The notes beneath the pieces are model-generated. The model was not told where the DNA came from and made no database searches. It saw only the letters and a list, made by a program, of their open reading frames with translations. Of a stretch of 64,000 bases of DNA, positions 1 through 25,090 are shown one piece after another (within the stretch, counting starts at the first letter, position 1; each line of letters opens with the position of its first letter). Made by a program: the position numbers and the translations under genes. The DNA is from Actinomyces denticolens (GTDB lineage: Bacteria; Actinomycetota; Actinomycetes; Actinomycetales; Actinomycetaceae). Location of the stretch: assembly GCF_002072185.1 (NCBI RefSeq), contig NZ_MVIW01000012.1, positions 1 to 64,000 on the forward strand, in the 5' to 3' direction.

Positions 1-512
1 CCCCCGAACCACGCGGATGACACCGCACCCCCCGGGGCGCCGCACCCCCATCCCTTGACAGTCCATCCCGACCCCCTGGGGGATACCGCCCCACCCCGGA
101 CGAACCGTCTCACCCCCGAGAAACCGTCTCACCCCGGCGCTGCGCCCTCGAACCGCACGGATGAGACCGCAACACCGGGCCGAGACGGTATACGCGGGCC
201 GAGACGGTATACGCGGGATGAGACCGCATATGCAGGCCCGGGGCGGCATCCCCGCACCCGGACCCCGGCCCCGGGGCGGCATGCACAGGCCCAAGGCGGC
301 ATGCACGGAGCCGGGACCGCACCCAGGCCCGGACACCGGGCCCAGGGCGCATGGCGTCCGAGGGGCCCCTCACCCGCGCGCGCATGAAGGCACCAGCCCC
401 CTGGGGGCGCATCTCACCCGCTCCGCATGCACGGCACGCCACGCGCCCTGAGTAGGCTTGCGCCAGAAGGACTGCGGGGTTCCCCGGGCAGTCAGCCACA
501 GGAAGAAGGACC
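1..512. other. Intergenic region with phased short repeats and the promoter of the first operon
   Basis: I see no convincing gene here: the open frames are all antiparallel G+C-rich shadows, and none has a ribosome site or a recognisable protein. The stretch is strongly repetitive (described separately at 85-240). Further short repeats include two copies of a GGCGGCATGCAC-like unit 20 bases apart near 274 and 294. A TAGGCT box at 453-458 is a plausible -10 element for the TPR gene that starts at 513, which would give a leader of roughly 50 bases containing a GGAAGAAGGA ribosome site just before the ATG. Confidence 0.6.
85..240. repeat. 19-bp-phased GAGAC(C/G)G / CGTCTC repeat array
   Basis: ACCG(T/C)C(T/C)CACCCC occurs at 85, 104 and 123, each exactly 19 bases from the next. 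The opposite orientation of the same core, GAGAC(C/G)G, occurs at 163, 182, 201 and 220, again exactly 19 bases apart. The copies at 182 and 201 are identical over 17 bases. Seven core motifs thus lie on a 19-base grid with an orientation switch in the middle. This is not a CRISPR (units too short, no spacers of uniform length between long repeats). Its function is unknown; iterated operator-type binding is one possibility. Confidence 0.7.
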
Positions 513-1976
513 ATGGCTCACGACAGGGCGTATGACAGGAACGATGGCGGGCACCGGTCGGGCGGTGCGCGTGGCGACCGCCATGGCTTCGGCGCTCGGG
601 GCGGCGATCGCTTCGGTGATGGGCGTCCGCAGCGCCGCTCCTACCGGTCGGATGAGCGTTCCGGCGGCTTCCATGAGGGTGGCTATCGTGAGGGCGATCA
701 TCGCGATCACGGCGACGGGGGCTACTCGGAGCGCCGTTCCTACCACCGCTCCGGTGATGATCACCGGGGCGGCCAGCGGGGCTCGTACCGCTCGGGCGAG
801 GGCCGCGACGGGGGCTACCGCGACGGCGGGCGCCGCGAGGACCGCTACCGCGCTCGGGGCTACGGTGAGCGCTCGGAGCGAGGAGACCGCTCGGATCGCC
901 GCCCTTACCGCTCCCGCGACGATCGCCGGGGAGGCGCCGGGGGATCCCGTGATGGGCGCTTCGAGGGTGACCGGCGCAACGGTCGCCCTGGCGCGCGCGG
1001 CACCCGTGCCCCCCAGCGCAACCGGGTCCCCGAGCCCCGCGTTCCCGACGACGTCGAGCCCGCGCAACTGGAGGCCTCCGCGAGGCGCGAACTGCGGGCG
1101 CTCGGGCGCTCGAACGCGGAGAGCGTCGCCAGGCACCTGGTGATGGTGCAGCGCCTCCTGGACTCCGACCCGGCGCTGGCCCACGAGCATGCCCGCTACG
1201 CCGCCTCGCACGCCGGGCGCATCGCCGTCGTCCGCGAGGCCGCGGGCATCGCAGCCTACCTCTCCGAGCATTACACCGACGCCCTGCGCGACATCCGCGC
1301 CGCGCGCCGGCTGTCCGGCCTCGACCTCCACCGGGCGATCGAGGCCGACTGCGAGCGCGCCCTCGGGCGCTACAACCAGGCCCTCAAGGCAGCCGCGGAG
1401 GCCGATCCCAAGCAGCTCGACGACGTCGAGGAGGCCGAGATCGCCATGGTCGTGTCCGGCGTCCGCCACGAGATGGGTCAGGACGAGCTCGGGCTCGTCG
1501 TCATCGAGGACGCCATCCGCCTCTTCCGCGGGGACCGAGAGACACTGCGACGCCTCCATTCCGTGCGCGCTGACCGCCTCGAGGACCTCGGGCGGGGCCA
1601 GGAGGCCGAGGCCATTCGCGAGCGCATCGGCAAGGCATCCGCGCCCGCAGAAGCGGACGTCGAGGTATACGACGTCGAGGAGGAATCCGAGGAGGAGCGG
1701 GCCGCCGAGGACTCTCCGATGGAGCCTGCCGAGGAGGACGGCTGGGACGAGGAGCCCACCGGGGCTTCCATCGACGACCCGGAAGGCGCCTCGGAGTCCG
1801 GTGCCGGCATCGGGGAGCGCGCCGACAGCGCCCCGGAGGCTTTGGCCCCTCACGGCGCCGACGCCATCGAGGACGAGCTCATCGAGCACCTCCAGTCCCA
1901 CGGCATCCCCGCCGACGCCGGCACGGGCGCCCCCAACGATCCTGATGACATCCACGGCGAGGAGGACAAGGCATGA
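513..1976 (+). CDS. TPR-like protein with Arg/Gly/Asp-rich N-terminus (Rv1691-type)
   Basis: A 487-residue protein. Roughly the first 170 residues are low-complexity and rich in Arg, Gly, Asp, Ser and Tyr, resembling RGG-type disordered RNA-binding tails. Residues of about 175-390 are helical with a TPR-like pattern of paired helices and Ala/Leu/Tyr positions (for example YNQALKAAAEADP). The last about 100 residues are acidic. The ATG has a GGAAGAAGGA ribosome site. Position at the head of the HAD-tlyA-nadK-recN operon matches M. tuberculosis Rv1691, a TPR-family conserved hypothetical; that assignment rests on gene order and on the helical repeat. The biochemical role is unknown. The stop overlaps the next start (ATGA). 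Confidence 0.8.
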   Translation: MAHDRAYDRNDGGHRSGGARGDRHGFGARGGDRFGDGRPQRRSYRSDERSGGFHEGGYREGDHRDHGDGGYSERRSYHRSGDDHRGGQRGSYRSGEGRDGGYRDGGRREDRYRARGYGERSERGDRSDRRPYRSRDDRRGGAGGSRDGRFEGDRRNGRPGARGTRAPQRNRVPEPRVPDDVEPAQLEASARRELRALGRSNAESVARHLVMVQRLLDSDPALAHEHARYAASHAGRIAVVREAAGIAAYLSEHYTDALRDIRAARRLSGLDLHRAIEADCERALGRYNQALKAAAEADPKQLDDVEEAEIAMVVSGVRHEMGQDELGLVVIEDAIRLFRGDRETLRRLHSVRADRLEDLGRGQEAEAIRERIGKASAPAEADVEVYDVEEESEEERAAEDSPMEPAEEDGWDEEPTGASIDDPEGASESGAGIGERADSAPEALAPHGADAIEDELIEHLQSHGIPADAGTGAPNDPDDIHGEEDKA

Positions 1977-9650: not shown

Positions 9651-10379
9651 GTGAATTCCGTCCTCGGTCTGCAAGGAAAGTTTCTCCTCGATGTCGAAGA
9701 GATCGTTGTGACGCTTGATGGGCGACAAGTCCTTTCTCATGCTTCACTGAGCATTCAACGAGGTGAGTCCGTATCGGTCCGGGGAGCCTCGGGGAGCGGC
9801 AAGAGCACGTTGCTCTCCGTCATCCTAGGGTTGCGCAAGCCCGATAAGGGGACGGTGACGATCGGCGGAGTGCCGATGCGCGCGGGGCTCGGTGCCCGGG
9901 CGACAAGGCTGCGCCGGGAATCCATTGGTATGCTGTTCCAGGATCACTATCTCGTGGACACCATGACGGCGGCGGACAACGTCATGCTGCCCGCCATGCT
10001 CGTGGGGAGGAGGACGGAGGATGCCCGTCGGGCAGCGGTCGCCCTCCTGGGCGACTTCGGGCTGACAGACCCTGATCGTCAGATCAGGACGTACTCAGGA
10101 GGGGAGAGGCAGAGAATCTCCATCGCCCGGGCACTCATCAACGAGCCCCAGATCCTCCTGGCTGACGAACCGACAGGATCCCTTGATCCTGCCAATAGGG
10201 GCGCGGTTATCAACGCCCTCATCTCCATCCCCGAGCGGCGGGGCTGCTCTATTCTGCTCGTCACGCACGACCCTATCGTCGCCACGAGTGCGCAAAGGGC
10301 TCTCGTCCTGGAAGGGGGAAAATTAACAGAGGCGCGCACGGATTCTCTTCTCCCTGCATCTGAAGGGAGAGGCGCCTGA
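9651..10379 (+). CDS. ABC transporter ATPase, MacB/BceA (LolD-like) class
   Basis: 242 residues, GTG start with GAGG about ten bases upstream. Walker A is GASGSGKST at 45-53, the signature YSGGERQR begins near residue 148 and Walker B ILLADEPTGSLD near 167; the H-loop is VTHD. The class (LolD, MacB, BceA) works with FtsX-like permeases that use mechanotransmission rather than classic import, often for export or resistance to peptides. It lies 34 bases after the secreted-peptide gene and its stop shares bases with the start of the permease gene (TGATG), so the three form one unit. The ATPase itself looks intact although its partner is broken. Confidence 0.85.
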   Translation: MNSVLGLQGKFLLDVEEIVVTLDGRQVLSHASLSIQRGESVSVRGASGSGKSTLLSVILGLRKPDKGTVTIGGVPMRAGLGARATRLRRESIGMLFQDHYLVDTMTAADNVMLPAMLVGRRTEDARRAAVALLGDFGLTDPDRQIRTYSGGERQRISIARALINEPQILLADEPTGSLDPANRGAVINALISIPERRGCSILLVTHDPIVATSAQRALVLEGGKLTEARTDSLLPASEGRGA

Positions 10380-12058
10380 TGGTAAGGGACGGATGGATGA
10401 GAGTATGGCGCGTCGGCGCTGCAATCCGTGATTCCGACAAACGTGCATGGGGGCGACTCTTCGCCGTCTCGCGGACCTCCGGGGTCCTGTTCCTCTGCCT
10501 CGATGTTGTCGCGGTTGTCATGGTGCTCCGCACAGCCGAGTTGCGTGAGAGTCGTGCTGCGATGATTTCTCCGATTCCCGCGTCGTCGTCTGATGATATT
10601 CGGCTATATTATGGTTTTAAGCTCAGTGATCTCAACTTCAAGCCGGTCATCGACGTTCTTCTTGACCCAGTCTCCGAGGACGCTCCTCTGCCGCCAGGTG
10701 TTGCCGCGTGGCCAGCTCCAGGCGAGGCCGTAGTGTCGCCGCAACTCGCCAAAGAACTCGTCGGTGAGCACGAAGGCGTCTTCGGGCCTGCCGTTGGAGA
10801 GATTGGCACTGTCTGCGTGGCGATGTCCTCGGGCATGCGAAGCGATGAGGGGTAGCGGCGCTCGACGTCTCTCGTGTCCATCGGGATGAGACGCCGTGAC
10901 CTCGTCATCCTCGACCTCGCCGAGACGCAGCCCTCAATGCTCCGGGGGGTCGGCCATCGCACTGGGCTGTGTCGCGCTGCTCCTGGCAGTCGATGTGCCC
11001 CTGCCCTGGCTCGATACCGTGCTTCAAGCGGCTCAAACCCGACAATCGACAGGATCGCTTCTCGGTGCGATCGCTATCGGCGCCCTGCTGTCGGTGGCGA
11101 TCACGTTGAGCGTGAAGGCCTCCTCGCGATTCCTGTCCGTCAGAGTCGGGAGGCGCGGGAGACGTGTGAGAAGCGACGCCCGCACCGATGTGCGAATCAC
11201 CATAGGTGCGATCGGTTTCGCGGCCGCTATCGTTGGGCCGATCCTCATGGTGGAGAGTCCCCATCGGCCGCTCTTCTATTATTTAGGCGTCATCTTGGTC
11301 GCGCTCTCGCTGCCGGATCTTGCGGCAAGGCTCGTGGCTCGAGCGGGAGTGAGAATTGTTAAGCGCGGCTTCCGCCGCTCGCAGACACGGAACCTCGTCT
11401 CCGGCCGGTACCTCGAGGCCCTCAATGGGCGGAGTTCAAGGCTCGCCCTCGGCATTTGCGTCGCCATCATCGAGACGCTTGATTCTTCACCTGCCGGTGA
11501 GGAGGTGATGCCTCCTGATCTTCCCGCCCGCGCGGTCCTCCTGAGCCTGTCAGGAGAGAACATCGATATGGACGGCCTGCGACGCGCGGCGATCGCAACG
11601 AATCCTGGTATGGGCTTCTCCAGCCTCGGAGACGGTGAGGCAGTAGTCGCGAACCAGAAGAGCATTATGGGGAACTGGGTTTTGAGTCTCAGCTCGGTCG
11701 GCATCATCCTCGTGATGGCATTTTTCGCCGCCTGTGTAGGCGTCGAGGCACGATCGAATGCCGAGCGCCTGGCCCCGGTCGGGGTCGTGGCGGGCGAGCC
11801 CGGGCTCGCCTCCCGGACGGCTTGGCTCACAGCCTCCCTACCGGTGCTCATCGCAGACCTCACCGGCGTAGCCGCTTATGCGCTCCTCCCCGTGGGCCTG
11901 GATGATCGGCTTGAGGGCTCGACGCGCAGTGACACCCTGGTCCACCTCAGCCCCGTCTTCATCGGGGCGCACTCGCCCTGACCGTGATCATCGCCCTGTG
12001 GGCGGGGTGCTCGGCCAGCAGGGCAACGGCTCGCGCGGCGGCCGACTGGCTGCCCTGA
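10379..12058 (+). pseudogene. Degraded ABC permease (FtsX/MacB-like or DUF1430-like membrane protein)
   Basis: Three lesions split one ancestral gene. From 10379 the frame codes an N-terminal membrane helix (SGVLFLCLDVVAVVMVL) and an extracytoplasmic segment, then meets TAG at 10853. The same frame reads on sensibly as GMRRRDLVILDLAE until a run of six G at 10944-10949. Removing one G joins it to the next frame (GSAIALGCVALLLAVD), which carries several membrane helices to about 11970. There a further shift is needed to continue as LALTVIIALWAGC and end at TGA 12056-12058. Repaired length is about 560 residues with around eight helices. The exporter is probably non-functional unless the lesions are sequencing errors. 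Confidence 0.75.
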
Positions 12059-12104
12059 GCCCCCCGGGAGCCGTCAATGAGCCAGCGGCGCGCTCTCCGG
12101 CCGG

Positions 12105-12110
12105 TAGCCT
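12105..12110 (+). promoter_or_regulatory. Candidate -10 box, leaderless start of the MraY-like gene
   Basis: TAGCCT ends seven bases before the ATG at 12118 and there is no Shine-Dalgarno sequence. Transcription would begin at or next to the start codon. This gives the murJ unit its own promoter downstream of the inserted ABC segment. Confidence 0.45.
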
Positions 12111-12117
12111 GGAACCC

Positions 12118-13050
12118 ATGACCGCCGCAACGCTCCAGAGAGGCAGCAGCCGCCACTTGAGCCGCCCTCGCAGTGCGACTTCACCTGCCCGCCAGGCTCT
12201 CACCGCCGCGACGAGCGGCCTCGCCTGGAGCGCCGGGGCCTCCGCACTCCTGCGAGCCCTGCCCAGGTGGGGGCGGCTCGAACGCGCCAATTTCCATGGG
12301 CGCACGGTTTCCCTGCGGGGAGGCATCGCCACCGCCATCGGCGCCACCGCGGCGGCCGGCTGCGCAGGCGCTCTCACTGCCCGCCCCGGTGCGGCCGCCG
12401 TCATCGCCGCCTCCGCCGGAGGCACCGCCGGACTCATCGACGATCTCGACGCCGGTGCCCACGACGGAGAGACTCCCGCCAAGGGCCTGGCCGGCCACCT
12501 CGGCGCCCTCGCCCGCGGACGCGTCACCACCGGCGCCCTCAAGATCGCCATCATCGGCTCCGGCGCCCTCGTCGGCGGCGTCCTCCTCGCCAGGCACAGG
12601 GCCCCGGCCGCCCGACCGCGCTCGCTCGTCGCCGACGCCGCGGTGAGCACCATCGTCATCGGCGCCTGGGCCAACGTCCACAACCTCCTCGACCTGCGCC
12701 CCGGGCGCGCCCTCAAGGCCGGCGCGCTCATCTCGGCCCCTCTTCTCGCCTGGCCTGGCCAGGCCGCGGCCCCCACCCGCCTCCTCGCCGCCGGCGCCCT
12801 CGGGGTCGCCGCCGCATCGGCGCCCGAGGACCTCGGCGAGCGCACCATGCTCGGCGACACCGGCGCCAACTCCCTCGGCGCCCTCGTCGGCGCAGCCCTC
12901 GCCACCGCCCCCTCACGAGCCTTCCGCCATGGGGCGGCGGTGGCCGGCGTCGCCCTCATCCTGGCCAGCGAGCGCGTCTCCTTCTCACGCGTCATCGACT
13001 CCACCCCGGCCCTCGCCGCGCTGGACGCCCTGGGACGCCGGGACCGATGA
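12118..13050 (+). CDS. MraY/WecA-type polyprenyl-phosphate glycosyl-1-phosphate transferase-like membrane protein
   Basis: 310 residues, polytopic. Family landmarks are GLIDDLDA near residue 100 (the Asp-rich Mg2+ site), NVHNLLDLRPGRALKAG (the N-x-x-N-x-x-D-x-x-x-G region) and LGDTGANSLGALVGA near residue 245. These are the hallmarks of enzymes that move a sugar-1-phosphate onto a polyprenyl phosphate carrier. It lies directly before murJ and a GT4 glycosyltransferase, a trio seen next to steAB in many actinobacteria, suggesting a role in wall-linked lipid carriers. It is shorter than MraY and too divergent to name the substrate. The ATG is chosen over a long upstream open frame that only overlaps the pseudogene. 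Confidence 0.75.
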   Translation: MTAATLQRGSSRHLSRPRSATSPARQALTAATSGLAWSAGASALLRALPRWGRLERANFHGRTVSLRGGIATAIGATAAAGCAGALTARPGAAAVIAASAGGTAGLIDDLDAGAHDGETPAKGLAGHLGALARGRVTTGALKIAIIGSGALVGGVLLARHRAPAARPRSLVADAAVSTIVIGAWANVHNLLDLRPGRALKAGALISAPLLAWPGQAAAPTRLLAAGALGVAAASAPEDLGERTMLGDTGANSLGALVGAALATAPSRAFRHGAAVAGVALILASERVSFSRVIDSTPALAALDALGRRDR

Positions 13051-14792
13051 CGGACAGGGCCGCCGATGCGCGCGCCGAGGGCGGGACCAGCGGGGCGCAG
13101 CGAGGTCTGGCGACCGTCGTCGGCGGCGTCGCCGGGCTCACCCTCATCTCCCGCGCGCTCGGATTCCTCCGCTGGATCGTCCAGGCCGCGACCGTCGGCA
13201 CAGGCGCCGTCGCCGGGGCCTACGCCACTGCCAACCAGGTCCCCAACGTCCTGTACGAGGTCGTCGTCGGCGGGGCCCTGGCCGCCACCATCGTCCCCCT
13301 CCTGGCCAGCGCCATCATGGCGGGCGACCGCGAGATGGTCTCCCGAACCGCCTCCGCGATGCTCAGCCTGGTACTGGCCATCCTCGTGCCCCTGGGCATC
13401 CTCCTCGCCGTCCTCGCCGACCCCATCGCCGCGCTCTTCCCCACGTCAGCCGACGCCGACCCCGGCTTCCAAACGCGACTCGTCGCCGACTTCCTGCGCA
13501 TGTTCGCCCTCCAAGTGCCGCTCTACGGCATCGGCGTCGTCCTCACCGGCGTCCTCCAGGCGCACCGGCGCTTCGCCTGGCCCGCCCTCACTCCGATCCT
13601 GTCCAGCCTCGTCGTCATGGCCGCCTACGCCCTCTACGGCGCCATCACCCCCGAGGGGGCGGACCAGTGGACGCGCAGCGCCGACTCGGCGGGGCTGCTC
13701 GTCCTCGGCTGGGGGACCACGCTCGGCGTGGCCGCCCTCAGCCTTCCCCTCCTCATCCCCGCCTCCCGCCTCGACATCGATCTGAGGCCAACGCTCCGCC
13801 TCGACGTCGCCACCCGCCGACGTGCGTGGAGCCTGGCCACCGCCGGCATCACCGCCCTGGTCGCCCAGCAGGCCTTCATGCTCCTCGTGCCCATCCTCGC
13901 CCGCTCCGGGGGAGTCAGCGGCACCATCGCCGTCTACCAGTACACGCAGGCCATCTGGGTGCTTCCCTACGCCGTGCTCGTCGTGCCCGTGGCCACCGTC
14001 CTCTACCCGAGGATCGCGGGCCTGCTCGGAGACGACGCCGACCGGTCCTCGGGCGCCCGGGCCGCCGGCGGGGCGGGGGCGATGAGCGCAGCGGGCGATC
14101 CTGGTGGAGCGCCCGGAGAGAGCGTGCTGGGCAGGCATGCGCGGAGCCCGCGCGAGGAGGCCCTGGGGCTGTGCGGTGACTCCACCGCCCTCGTCACCGG
14201 CGTCTCCCTGGCCGGCATGGCGATGCTCCTGGCAGCGAGCACCGGGGCCGAGGCGTTCTTCGCGCTCCTGACCGACGACGTACGAGGGATGTCCGCCGCC
14301 CTGGTCTCCTTCGCCCCCGGCATCGTCGGCTTCGGCCTCATCCACCAGATCACCCGCATTCTCTTCGCCGCCGGTCGCGCGCGCTGGGCCGCCCACGCCA
14401 CCGCGCTGGGCTGGGCCGCGGCAGCGCTCCTGTCCACGGCCGCCGTGCGGCTGCTGGCCCCGGGCGGCGCAGACGGCCCCGCCACGCTGAAGGCCCTCGG
14501 TATCGGCACCAGTATCGGCATGACGATCGCGGGCATCGGCCTTCTCACGGCCCTGGCCCGCTGCCTGGAAGCCTCGGTGCTGCGCCCCATCGCCCGGGTC
14601 ATCCTCGCCGGGGCCCCGGTCGCGGCGGCCTCCGGGTGGGCCGGGCGGGCACTCAGCCAGATGACCGGCGCACCCTGGTCCCAGATCCTGCTCTCCAGCG
14701 TCTGGGCGCTCCTGGCCGCCCTCGCCACCATCACCGCCGCGCATATCGTCTGCCCCCAGGCCCTGGGAGCGCTGCGCCGGGGGAGGAGATGA
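13047..14792 (+). CDS. murJ: MurJ-like lipid II flippase (MOP superfamily)
   Basis: 581 residues from the ATG overlapping the previous stop (ATGA). The MVF-family N-terminus is present: SRALGFLRWIVQAATVG, then PNVLYEVVVGGALAATIVPL. About 12-14 hydrophobic helices follow. A Gly/Ala/Arg-rich cytoplasmic insert lies near residues 330-370 between helices. MurJ flips lipid II across the membrane for peptidoglycan synthesis. It is smaller than mycobacterial MviN, which carries a pseudokinase extension, and no such extension is seen. The flanking transferase and GT4 genes share four-base overlaps with it, so the three are translationally coupled. Confidence 0.88.
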   Translation: MTDRAADARAEGGTSGAQRGLATVVGGVAGLTLISRALGFLRWIVQAATVGTGAVAGAYATANQVPNVLYEVVVGGALAATIVPLLASAIMAGDREMVSRTASAMLSLVLAILVPLGILLAVLADPIAALFPTSADADPGFQTRLVADFLRMFALQVPLYGIGVVLTGVLQAHRRFAWPALTPILSSLVVMAAYALYGAITPEGADQWTRSADSAGLLVLGWGTTLGVAALSLPLLIPASRLDIDLRPTLRLDVATRRRAWSLATAGITALVAQQAFMLLVPILARSGGVSGTIAVYQYTQAIWVLPYAVLVVPVATVLYPRIAGLLGDDADRSSGARAAGGAGAMSAAGDPGGAPGESVLGRHARSPREEALGLCGDSTALVTGVSLAGMAMLLAASTGAEAFFALLTDDVRGMSAALVSFAPGIVGFGLIHQITRILFAAGRARWAAHATALGWAAAALLSTAAVRLLAPGGADGPATLKALGIGTSIGMTIAGIGLLTALARCLEASVLRPIARVILAGAPVAAASGWAGRALSQMTGAPWSQILLSSVWALLAALATITAAHIVCPQALGALRRGRR

Positions 14793-16844: not shown

Positions 16845-16886
16845 CGCCGAGACCGGTCTCGATCGCCACTTCGACCGGTCTCGGCG
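16845..16886. repeat. Perfect 14-bp inverted repeat built from GAGACCGGTC
   Basis: CGCCGAGACCGGTC at 16845-16858 is exactly mirrored by GACCGGTCTCGGCG at 16873-16886, with a 14-base loop. It sits between two divergently transcribed genes, so it is not a terminator for either. The core is the same as in the 24509-24566 direct repeats. Confidence 0.75.
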
Positions 16887-24111: not shown

Positions 24112-24501
24112 ATGACCGACCACCCGACCACTGCCGAGGCCACCGCCGTGAACCCGATGGCCGCCCAGCACTCTCCCGCCCCCGTCCCGGCCGGCGTGGA
24201 TGTCGCCGCCATCGAGGAGGCGCTGCGCGACGTCATCGACCCCGAGCTCGGGATCAACGTCGTCGACCTGGGCCTCCTCTACGGCGTCTCCTTCGACCCC
24301 GACGGGACGGTCGTCCTCGACATGACTCTGACGACCGCCGCCTGCCCGCTCACCGACGTCATCGAGGAGCAGGCCCAGCAGGCCCTCGCCCTCATCGCCG
24401 ATAAGGTGCGCATCCAGTGGGTGTGGCTGCCGCCGTGGGGCCCGGACAAGATCACCCCCGAGGGCCGCGAGCAGTTGCGCGCCCTCGGCTTCAACGTCTG
24501 A
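24112..24501 (+). CDS. sufT: SufT-like DUF59/MIP18 Fe-S maturation protein
   Basis: 129 residues, ATG after CAGGAGGG. The MIP18/DUF59 core is clear: IEEALRDVIDPELGINVVDL, then LTTAACPLTDVI with the conserved Cys, and the C-terminal VWLPPWGPDKITPEGREQL. DUF59 proteins such as SufT assist Fe-S maturation of client proteins. It ends the suf operon as in M. tuberculosis (Rv1466). The N-terminal 30 residues are Ala/Pro/Thr-rich and likely disordered. Confidence 0.88.
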   Translation: MTDHPTTAEATAVNPMAAQHSPAPVPAGVDVAAIEEALRDVIDPELGINVVDLGLLYGVSFDPDGTVVLDMTLTTAACPLTDVIEEQAQQALALIADKVRIQWVWLPPWGPDKITPEGREQLRALGFNV

Positions 24502-24508
24502 TCCATAG

Positions 24509-24566
24509 CACCGAGACCGGTCGATACTGTCATCGAGACCGGTTGAAAACGGCACCGAGACCGGTT
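24509..24566. repeat. Three direct repeats CA(C/T)CGAGACCGGT(C/T) at exact 22-bp period
   Basis: Copies begin at 24509, 24531 and 24553. Each contains the palindromic core ACCGGT. The first copy starts eight bases after sufT and the third reaches the stop codon of the convergent flavodoxin-like gene. The period is close to two helical turns, so bound protein would sit on one face of the DNA. A lone further match, CCGAGACCGGTC, lies at 24768 inside the flavodoxin-like gene. Confidence 0.75.
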
Positions 24567-25090
24567 CACCCGGGCACGGCGGTCGTTGATTCACCGGAAC
24601 GGTGATTCCCATCGCAGACCAGTTCGGCGCCCCAGGCCCTCGCCTCCTCGACCTGGCCGTCGGCCAGCGCCCCGTTGCTTCCACCCGCCACGAGGAAACT
24701 GCGGACGGCGGCGCTTCGGCGGCGCGAGAGCCTGGTGATCTGCTTGGCGGCCGAGCCGTTGATCCAGCCGAGACCGGTCACCGTGTCGAAGGCCGCTATC
24801 CGCGTGCCGGGCGGGAGGCAGGCGCCTGCGAGCCATTCCCGCAGGCCCGGCTCCTCCGCCCCGACGCCGCGCTCGACGGCGGTGGCGCGGGATTTGATGG
24901 TCGGCAGCCCCCGGTTGTGCGTCGGCGCGCCGAGCACGAGGAGCCCCGCGCGGCCGATCTTCTCGGCTGTGGCCTCCCGAGGGGCCAGGACGGCGGTGCT
25001 CACGCCCGAGTCGCGCAGGCCCCGCGCGATCTCTTCAGCTGCGGCCCGCGTGGCGCCGAAGCAGGATTCGACGACGATGACAGCGCGCAT
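24566..25090 (-). CDS. Flavodoxin-like FMN-binding protein
   Basis: 174 residues starting MRAVIVVESCFGATRAAAEEI, the flavodoxin phosphate-binding loop (T/S-x-x-G-x-T type, here ESCFGAT). The second FMN loop LVLGAPTHNRGLP and the third AFDTVTGL also fit. The usual Trp/Tyr FMN stackers are not obvious, and the helix before AVRSFLVAGG is Arg-rich. Likely an electron carrier or quinone-reductase-type protein. The start has GAGAGGAAGA upstream and lies 56 bases inside the 3' end of the ABC permease gene, on the same strand. Confidence 0.78.
   Translation of the reverse strand: MRAVIVVESCFGATRAAAEEIARGLRDSGVSTAVLAPREATAEKIGRAGLLVLGAPTHNRGLPTIKSRATAVERGVGAEEPGLREWLAGACLPPGTRIAAFDTVTGLGWINGSAAKQITRLSRRRSAAVRSFLVAGGSNGALADGQVEEARAWGAELVCDGNHRSGESTTAVPG

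Follow-up and report, generated by a model that had tools for sequence, protein, structure and literature searches.

Inverted arrays of 19-base units in Actinomyces denticolens, a candidate clade-specific REP/BIME-like family of hairpins at gene 3' ends

The window analyzed here, a stretch of 64,000 nucleotides of the Actinomyces denticolens genome (contig NZ_MVIW01000012.1), begins with an array of short repeats located upstream of a gene without a Pfam match (513..1976, plus strand). The array consists of four 19-bp units on the minus strand (85..160, with starts at 85, 104, 123 and 142) followed by four opposite-facing units on the plus strand (161..236, with starts at 161, 180, 199 and 218), each of which contains GAGACCG or GAGACGG. 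An earlier note on this DNA had described the motifs ACCG(T/C)C(T/C)CACCCC at 85, 104 and 123 and GAGAC(C/G)G at 163, 182, 201 and 220 as an iterated site with an orientation switch; the exact 19-base spacing of both motifs was recovered in the sequence, and the description is right as anatomy given the two blocks of units that face in opposite directions. All seven copies named in the earlier note are present but an additional forward unit, GCGCCCTC at 142 within the innermost unit of the first block, was overlooked; because this unit keeps the 19-base grid, the array comprises 4 + 4 units in register (85-236). The family hairpin core maps to 109..201 (plus strand; covariance model R1, 78.4 bits, E 5.9e-18), and the innermost pair of units in this copy is imperfectly matched within the core. 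Further, decayed units, GGGGCGGCAT, GGCGGCATGCA and GGGACCGCA, can be read at 237..325 (plus strand), and positions 1..84 are part of a repeated flank that has matches on contigs C23 and C46.

The unusual feature of this locus is the 19-base grid and not the word GAGACSGNATNNGC, which, when allowed up to two mismatches, occurs no more often than expected across the whole window (53 occurrences vs 69 expected). Identity at lag 19 reaches 57% in positions 61-260, compared with 23-36% for every other lag between 10 and 29, and a period of 19 is also detected by Tandem Repeats Finder (92-137 and 176-217). Such spacing is indeed improbable by chance, as had been proposed: none of 2000 dinucleotide shuffles of positions 1-600 reproduces the grid or contains even two GAGACSG words 19 bases apart, and the longest 19-spaced run of GAGACSG is 2 in 200 shuffles of the whole window vs 4 in the actual sequence.

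Positions 1-180 of the window are 96% identical to C23:126939-127119, and positions 1-139 are 95% identical to C46:10605-10744. The latter segment lies beyond a 5S rRNA gene, at a distance of approximately 240 bases; no other 5S gene was found in this assembly. A U-tailed hairpin identified by eye between this gene and the array counts against a terminator role of the array. In the related genome G046, the stretches examined include three rRNA operons, each with one or two arrays past the 5S gene. The window locus is orthologous to one of these sites, and the G046 orthologue of the gene at 513..1976 is likewise preceded by an array and an rRNA operon. Thus, the window array most likely represents the 3' flank of an rRNA operon, a link that we infer because the operon itself would lie beyond the contig edge. 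The earlier placement of the array ahead of a major operon accordingly stands with respect to the downstream gene but leaves out this probable second role as an rRNA-operon flank.

Beyond the window, the repeat that the earlier note had suggested counting elsewhere turned out to be a dispersed family, present in relatives and at no fewer than about 35 places in the A. denticolens genome. This number is a manual merger of two BLAST searches, one with positions 1-520 of the window (53 matches with both strands counted, among the best 40 of 90 candidates scored) and one with a clean core copy (63 matches with both strands counted, among the best 40 of 43), and includes one 44-base partial match (C12:55906). 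The family copy numbers are lower bounds (for the relatives, the best 18 or best 20 matches per genome were taken), and the element rule, which requires four words on the grid, misses weaker copies, for example, one or both of those in locus L061. The wide dispersal, together with the bias towards gene ends described below, does not support the suggestion that the array is a remnant of a replicating unit. Positions 1-520 of the window have no match in the plasmid collection.

The copies share an architecture in which 19-base units face inward onto a 13-base centre, forming a hairpin of about 27 bp. In the common core, the centre RAACTNCGAGRAT is placed between the arm TACCGTCTCRNCCCGNNNTTGCGCCCTC and its reverse complement, and in 26 loci of the A. 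denticolens genome, the words CCGTCTC and GAGACGG usually point towards each other with a spacing of 58 (3 x 19 + 1) or 39 (2 x 19 + 1) bases. Among the 28 matches with spacing 58, the centre points in one direction in 15 and in the other in 10, and is unclear in three, one of which (L048 at 314) is apparently a chance match. The length of the copies varies by whole units, with no fixed end. In one locus (L049, contig C67), near-identical copies at 1020-1162 and 2325-2467 flank an acyltransferase-like gene. A search of five loci, including positions 1-2400 of the window, against Rfam 15 with E values up to 1 yielded two matches, neither of which reaches the gathering score, and a strict palindrome survey (arms of at least 17 bases with at most one mismatch) leaves the window copy uncounted and detects three other palindromes in the window.

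Covariance model matches were detected in 6 of the 213 Actinomycetaceae genomes, all in one of 36 genera (stricter filters, best 20 per genome). A. denticolens, G041, G046 and G059 have at least 20 matches each (both strands counted), and G020 and G061 have a single family place each; thus, high copy numbers are confined to four closely related Actinomyces, with singletons in two others. The RecN proteins of G041, G046 and G059 are 90-92% identical to the RecN encoded in the window, compared with at most 72% for all other near-full-length RecN of the genus. Both singletons lie at or next to the border of a segment that is 95-99% identical to the A. timonensis/gaoshouyii group. In G020, the copy is located at the start of a 3.7-kb segment (L222, approximately 9869-13608) with 95% identity to G041, against 79% and 85% for the neighbouring regions; in G061, it is located at the end of segments (L230, 4252-9902) that are 98-99% identical to G059, against 86% beyond. 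On this sequence evidence, the segments in G020 and G061 are apparently imported DNA. When GTDB contigs, from which records close to the A. denticolens genome might have been excluded, were scanned for the exact pattern, A. timonensis contributed 11 and A. gaoshouyii 8 of the 19 stretches recovered; the exact centre pattern is not found among IMG/VR viral contigs. Among the papers listed by searches of an open-licence library, no title or abstract opening describes such a family in Actinomyces.

With genes called by a codon-usage caller trained on the window, none of 75 copies has its midpoint inside a gene, and five overlap a gene end by no more than 45 bases. The copies are found between convergent genes (30), between co-directional genes (30), between divergent genes (11) or at a stretch edge (4, including the window copy). 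The convergent share, 30 of the 71 classified copies vs 71 of 448 gaps without a copy (p 1.4e-6), is also seen in the A. denticolens loci alone (13 of 27), and the median distance of a copy is 69 bases to stop codons (n 90) vs 185 to start codons (n 52). Orthologous copies were counted separately in the position, palindrome and mismatch tallies, so the p values are too small. The 11 divergent copies count against a hairpin that acts at gene ends.

Among the gaps without a copy, other palindromes (arms of at least 13 bases) are present in 26 of 49 convergent gaps vs 2 of 77 divergent gaps. When the copy is masked, such palindromes remain in 6 of 24 convergent copy-bearing gaps (compared with the above 26 of 49) and in 0 of 20 co-directional ones (compared with 40 of 228 controls). 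At a remaining length of 50-200 bases, the depletion is seen in convergent gaps (1 of 10 vs 18 of 35, p 0.03) and is not significant in co-directional gaps (0 of 14 vs 18 of 154, p 0.37); at 60-150 bases, the respective p values are 0.10 and 1.0. By the rule applied, none of the 73 copy-bearing gene ends has a U-tract behind the hairpin. However, U-tails so defined are scarce throughout, with 4 of 333 in controls whose gap is at least 60 bases, and the comparison is thus uninformative with regard to U-tailed terminators.

Pairing between the arms was assessed in 56 distinct copies from A. denticolens and its relatives, a set that was selected partly by the conserved centre and includes orthologous copies that are not independent. 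Across 27 column pairs, 89.3% of the pairs are standard, compared with 85.4 in shuffled data; the doubly changed cells number 97 vs 55.4, and the covariation score is 0.184, compared with 0.125 for shuffled and at most 0.079 for slid alignments. Eleven column pairs have at least one double change, an unremarkable count that 124 of 500 shuffles also reach. Covariation peaks in the variable spacer (columns 29-31 with 65-67), and orthologous copies differ by paired changes and by a reversed centre, as in L063/L181 and L059/L204. RNA folding gives z -5.2 for positions 85-230 of the window, and z -12 and -13 for two clean copies. On the transcribed strand of co-directional copies, arm mismatches include 45 G.U and 26 A.C (p 0.03), along with 59 others; there is no G.U excess in divergent copies (11 G.U, 11 A.C) or in convergent copies assigned to the nearer gene (14 G.U, 21 A.C).

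A hairpin at gene ends is indicated in the first place by the arm-to-arm covariation combined with the position of the copies, and the palindrome-gap and G.U results, taken together, favour, without proving, RNA hairpins at these sites. The interpretation that we put first, with about even confidence, is that the arrays are a clade-specific REP/BIME-like family of 3'-end hairpins. In a transcript running past the stop codon, an array copy would fold into a long hairpin rich in G+C (about 27 bp). This hairpin could operate bidirectionally, terminating transcription without the help of a U-tract and/or blocking 3' exonucleases. The arms would be kept matched by selection and/or by template-switch correction, and new copies might arise by some route independent of any RAYT of the genus.

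The history of individual sites bears on an alternative that we view as a real but lesser possibility, namely, that these are selfish or passive palindromic repeats that spread and are tolerated in intergenic DNA at gene ends, where they do little harm. In that case, template-switch (quasi-palindrome) correction, which could be the source of arm matching without selection, would keep the arms matched. Five A. denticolens loci for which no orthologous copy had been matched proved empty in each of the nine stretches from relatives that were compared (L045 in G041 and G059; L051 in G046 and G059; L054 in G059, G046 and G041; L055 and L056 in G059): the covariance model matches all five loci and none of the nine stretches, where the word rule finds nothing either, and some of the empty stretches carry other, longer DNA at the site. 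These empty sites, the absence in G041 of a 14-unit array of G046, the near-identical copies in L049 and the flips of the centre between orthologues are all in line with passive spread. Against it stand at least 19 A. denticolens copies that have a counterpart at the orthologous site in at least one other species, the G.U excess in co-directional copies and the paucity of other palindromes beside copies. The rate of orthologous sites (78 of 79 flank comparisons with a copy) is biased upward given that the stretches were chosen around copies; for the same reason, purely vertical inheritance, which we had considered, was dropped once unmatched loci were tested and the empty sites were found.

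Another alternative places the function at the level of DNA: a putative protein (a nucleoid protein, a regulator or gyrase) would bind the 19-bp units or a cruciform and absorb supercoiling past highly transcribed or convergent genes. A role of gyrase at E. coli BIMEs is mentioned in the literature (PMC1525189), and the exact register on both sides of the centre as well as the placement past rRNA operons and between convergent genes fit this possibility. So does a second family of repeats with the same GAGACSG start, whose units begin with CGAGACCGGT and follow a 22-base grid (window 24512-24565, plus strand, and 16848-16883). However, the spacers of the 19-base family covary between the arms, something that binding sites in a simple row would not require, and we regard a DNA-level array as fairly unlikely. 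In the window and 30 stretches, all 15 same-direction neighbours among the CGAGACCGGT units are exactly 22 bases apart, and the units are sometimes inverted with mirrored spacers. Adjacent pairs number 64 in G000, 171 in G046, 69 in G041, 5 in G059, 8 in G004 and 0 in G020, compared with none for the reversed pattern in all six genomes, and positions 24500-24572 have BLAST matches in 10 of the 49 genus genomes. G020 appears to possess separate palindrome families, GGCTCCCATGTGCA (L219, L223, L225 and L227) and AACTCCTCGGTNTGC (L214 and L225).

Transposase fragments adjoin two sets of copies. An IS110-type transposase gene in pieces (L039, C23:124200-127119, at 1424-2490; one piece matches PF01548) is located beside arrays, and a fragment of a DDE-type transposase (L046 on C27, approximately 405-988; PF01609 over 82 aa), the ends of which read CTAGATGATTGATTCCA by eye, adjoins a family copy. 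A second IS110-type copy is present at C41:17168-18623. Together with the empty sites, these fragments might suggest mobile-element ends or a MITE, whose fixed terminal repeats would be mobilised by a transposase acting in trans; this is very unlikely considering that the copies vary by whole units without a fixed end, and that the visible ends of both fragments, inspected by eye, are unlike the unit, so that IS ends are not supported as the source of the units. No RAYT gene (Y1_Tnp, PF01797) was found in 49 Actinomyces genomes, compared with 5 positives among 14 control genomes, which also counts against a mobile element and led to the rejection of a RAYT as the mobiliser. DNA-uptake signals are known in Neisseria, and a repeated short word in inverted pairs near gene ends resembles them, but this explanation is disfavoured to the point of being extremely improbable by the near-confinement of GAGACGGTA to intergenic DNA (69 of 70 occurrences, with 0 or 1 coding, in the window and stretches of three relatives) and by the low copy number of the family.

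Returning to the gene-end hairpins, an extension that we consider unlikely would make the 19-bp and the 22-bp (CGAGACCGGT) families two variants of one system, in which GAGACSG units are read by a single protein or copying mechanism, arrays lengthen one unit at a time to either side of the centre while the spacers are kept mirror-matched, and palindromic 3'-end modules are made and spread independently of RAYT. Whatever their function, REP-like repeats in Actinomyces that combine grid-locked inverted arrays, orthologous as well as empty sites and the lack of a detected RAYT offer a tractable system in which to study the origin, the spread and the continued arm matching of bacterial palindromes. 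The 3'-end signals of high-G+C actinobacteria are poorly known, and if the arrays do terminate or protect transcripts, they would extend this repertoire.

Among known systems, intrinsic terminators are similar in that a G+C-rich hairpin follows stop codons, with many of the arrays placed so as to serve both strands; they differ in that the arrays have no U-tract by the rule applied and belong to one sequence family of tandem units. The GTAG and CGTC super-families of REP/BIME elements are described as repeated intergenic palindromes, often in opposite-facing groups, that mostly occur between co-directional and convergent genes near gene 3' ends (Di Nocera et al., 2013, PMC3733652); the names Actinomyces and Actinobacteria do not appear in the main text of that study. 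According to the same description, these REPs are 20-40 bp long and carry an unpaired tag, and the CGTC type, reported without a dedicated transposase, has stems of 8-9 bp, loops of 4-5 bases and an unpaired CGTC tag. The Actinomyces family similarly has no dedicated transposase that we could find, in contrast to the GTAG REPs with a RAYT. As far as the published description of the CGTC type goes, the Actinomyces family differs from this type in its stem of about 27 bp and 13-base centre, and it differs from both super-families as described in having no recognised tag and in the tandem 19-bp units that follow an exact grid on both arms. Insertion sequences that target REPs include the IS110 family (PMC1525189), and this has a parallel, limited to two cases, in the IS110-type fragment that adjoins the C23 arrays and a similar end that follows an array in G046 (L194, by eye). 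The stem length, the lack of a recognised tag and of a RAYT, and the 19-bp inner period thus set the Actinomyces family apart within the REP/BIME class, to which, in the broad sense, it is similar in being multicopy, extragenic, palindromic and biased towards gene 3' ends and convergent pairs.
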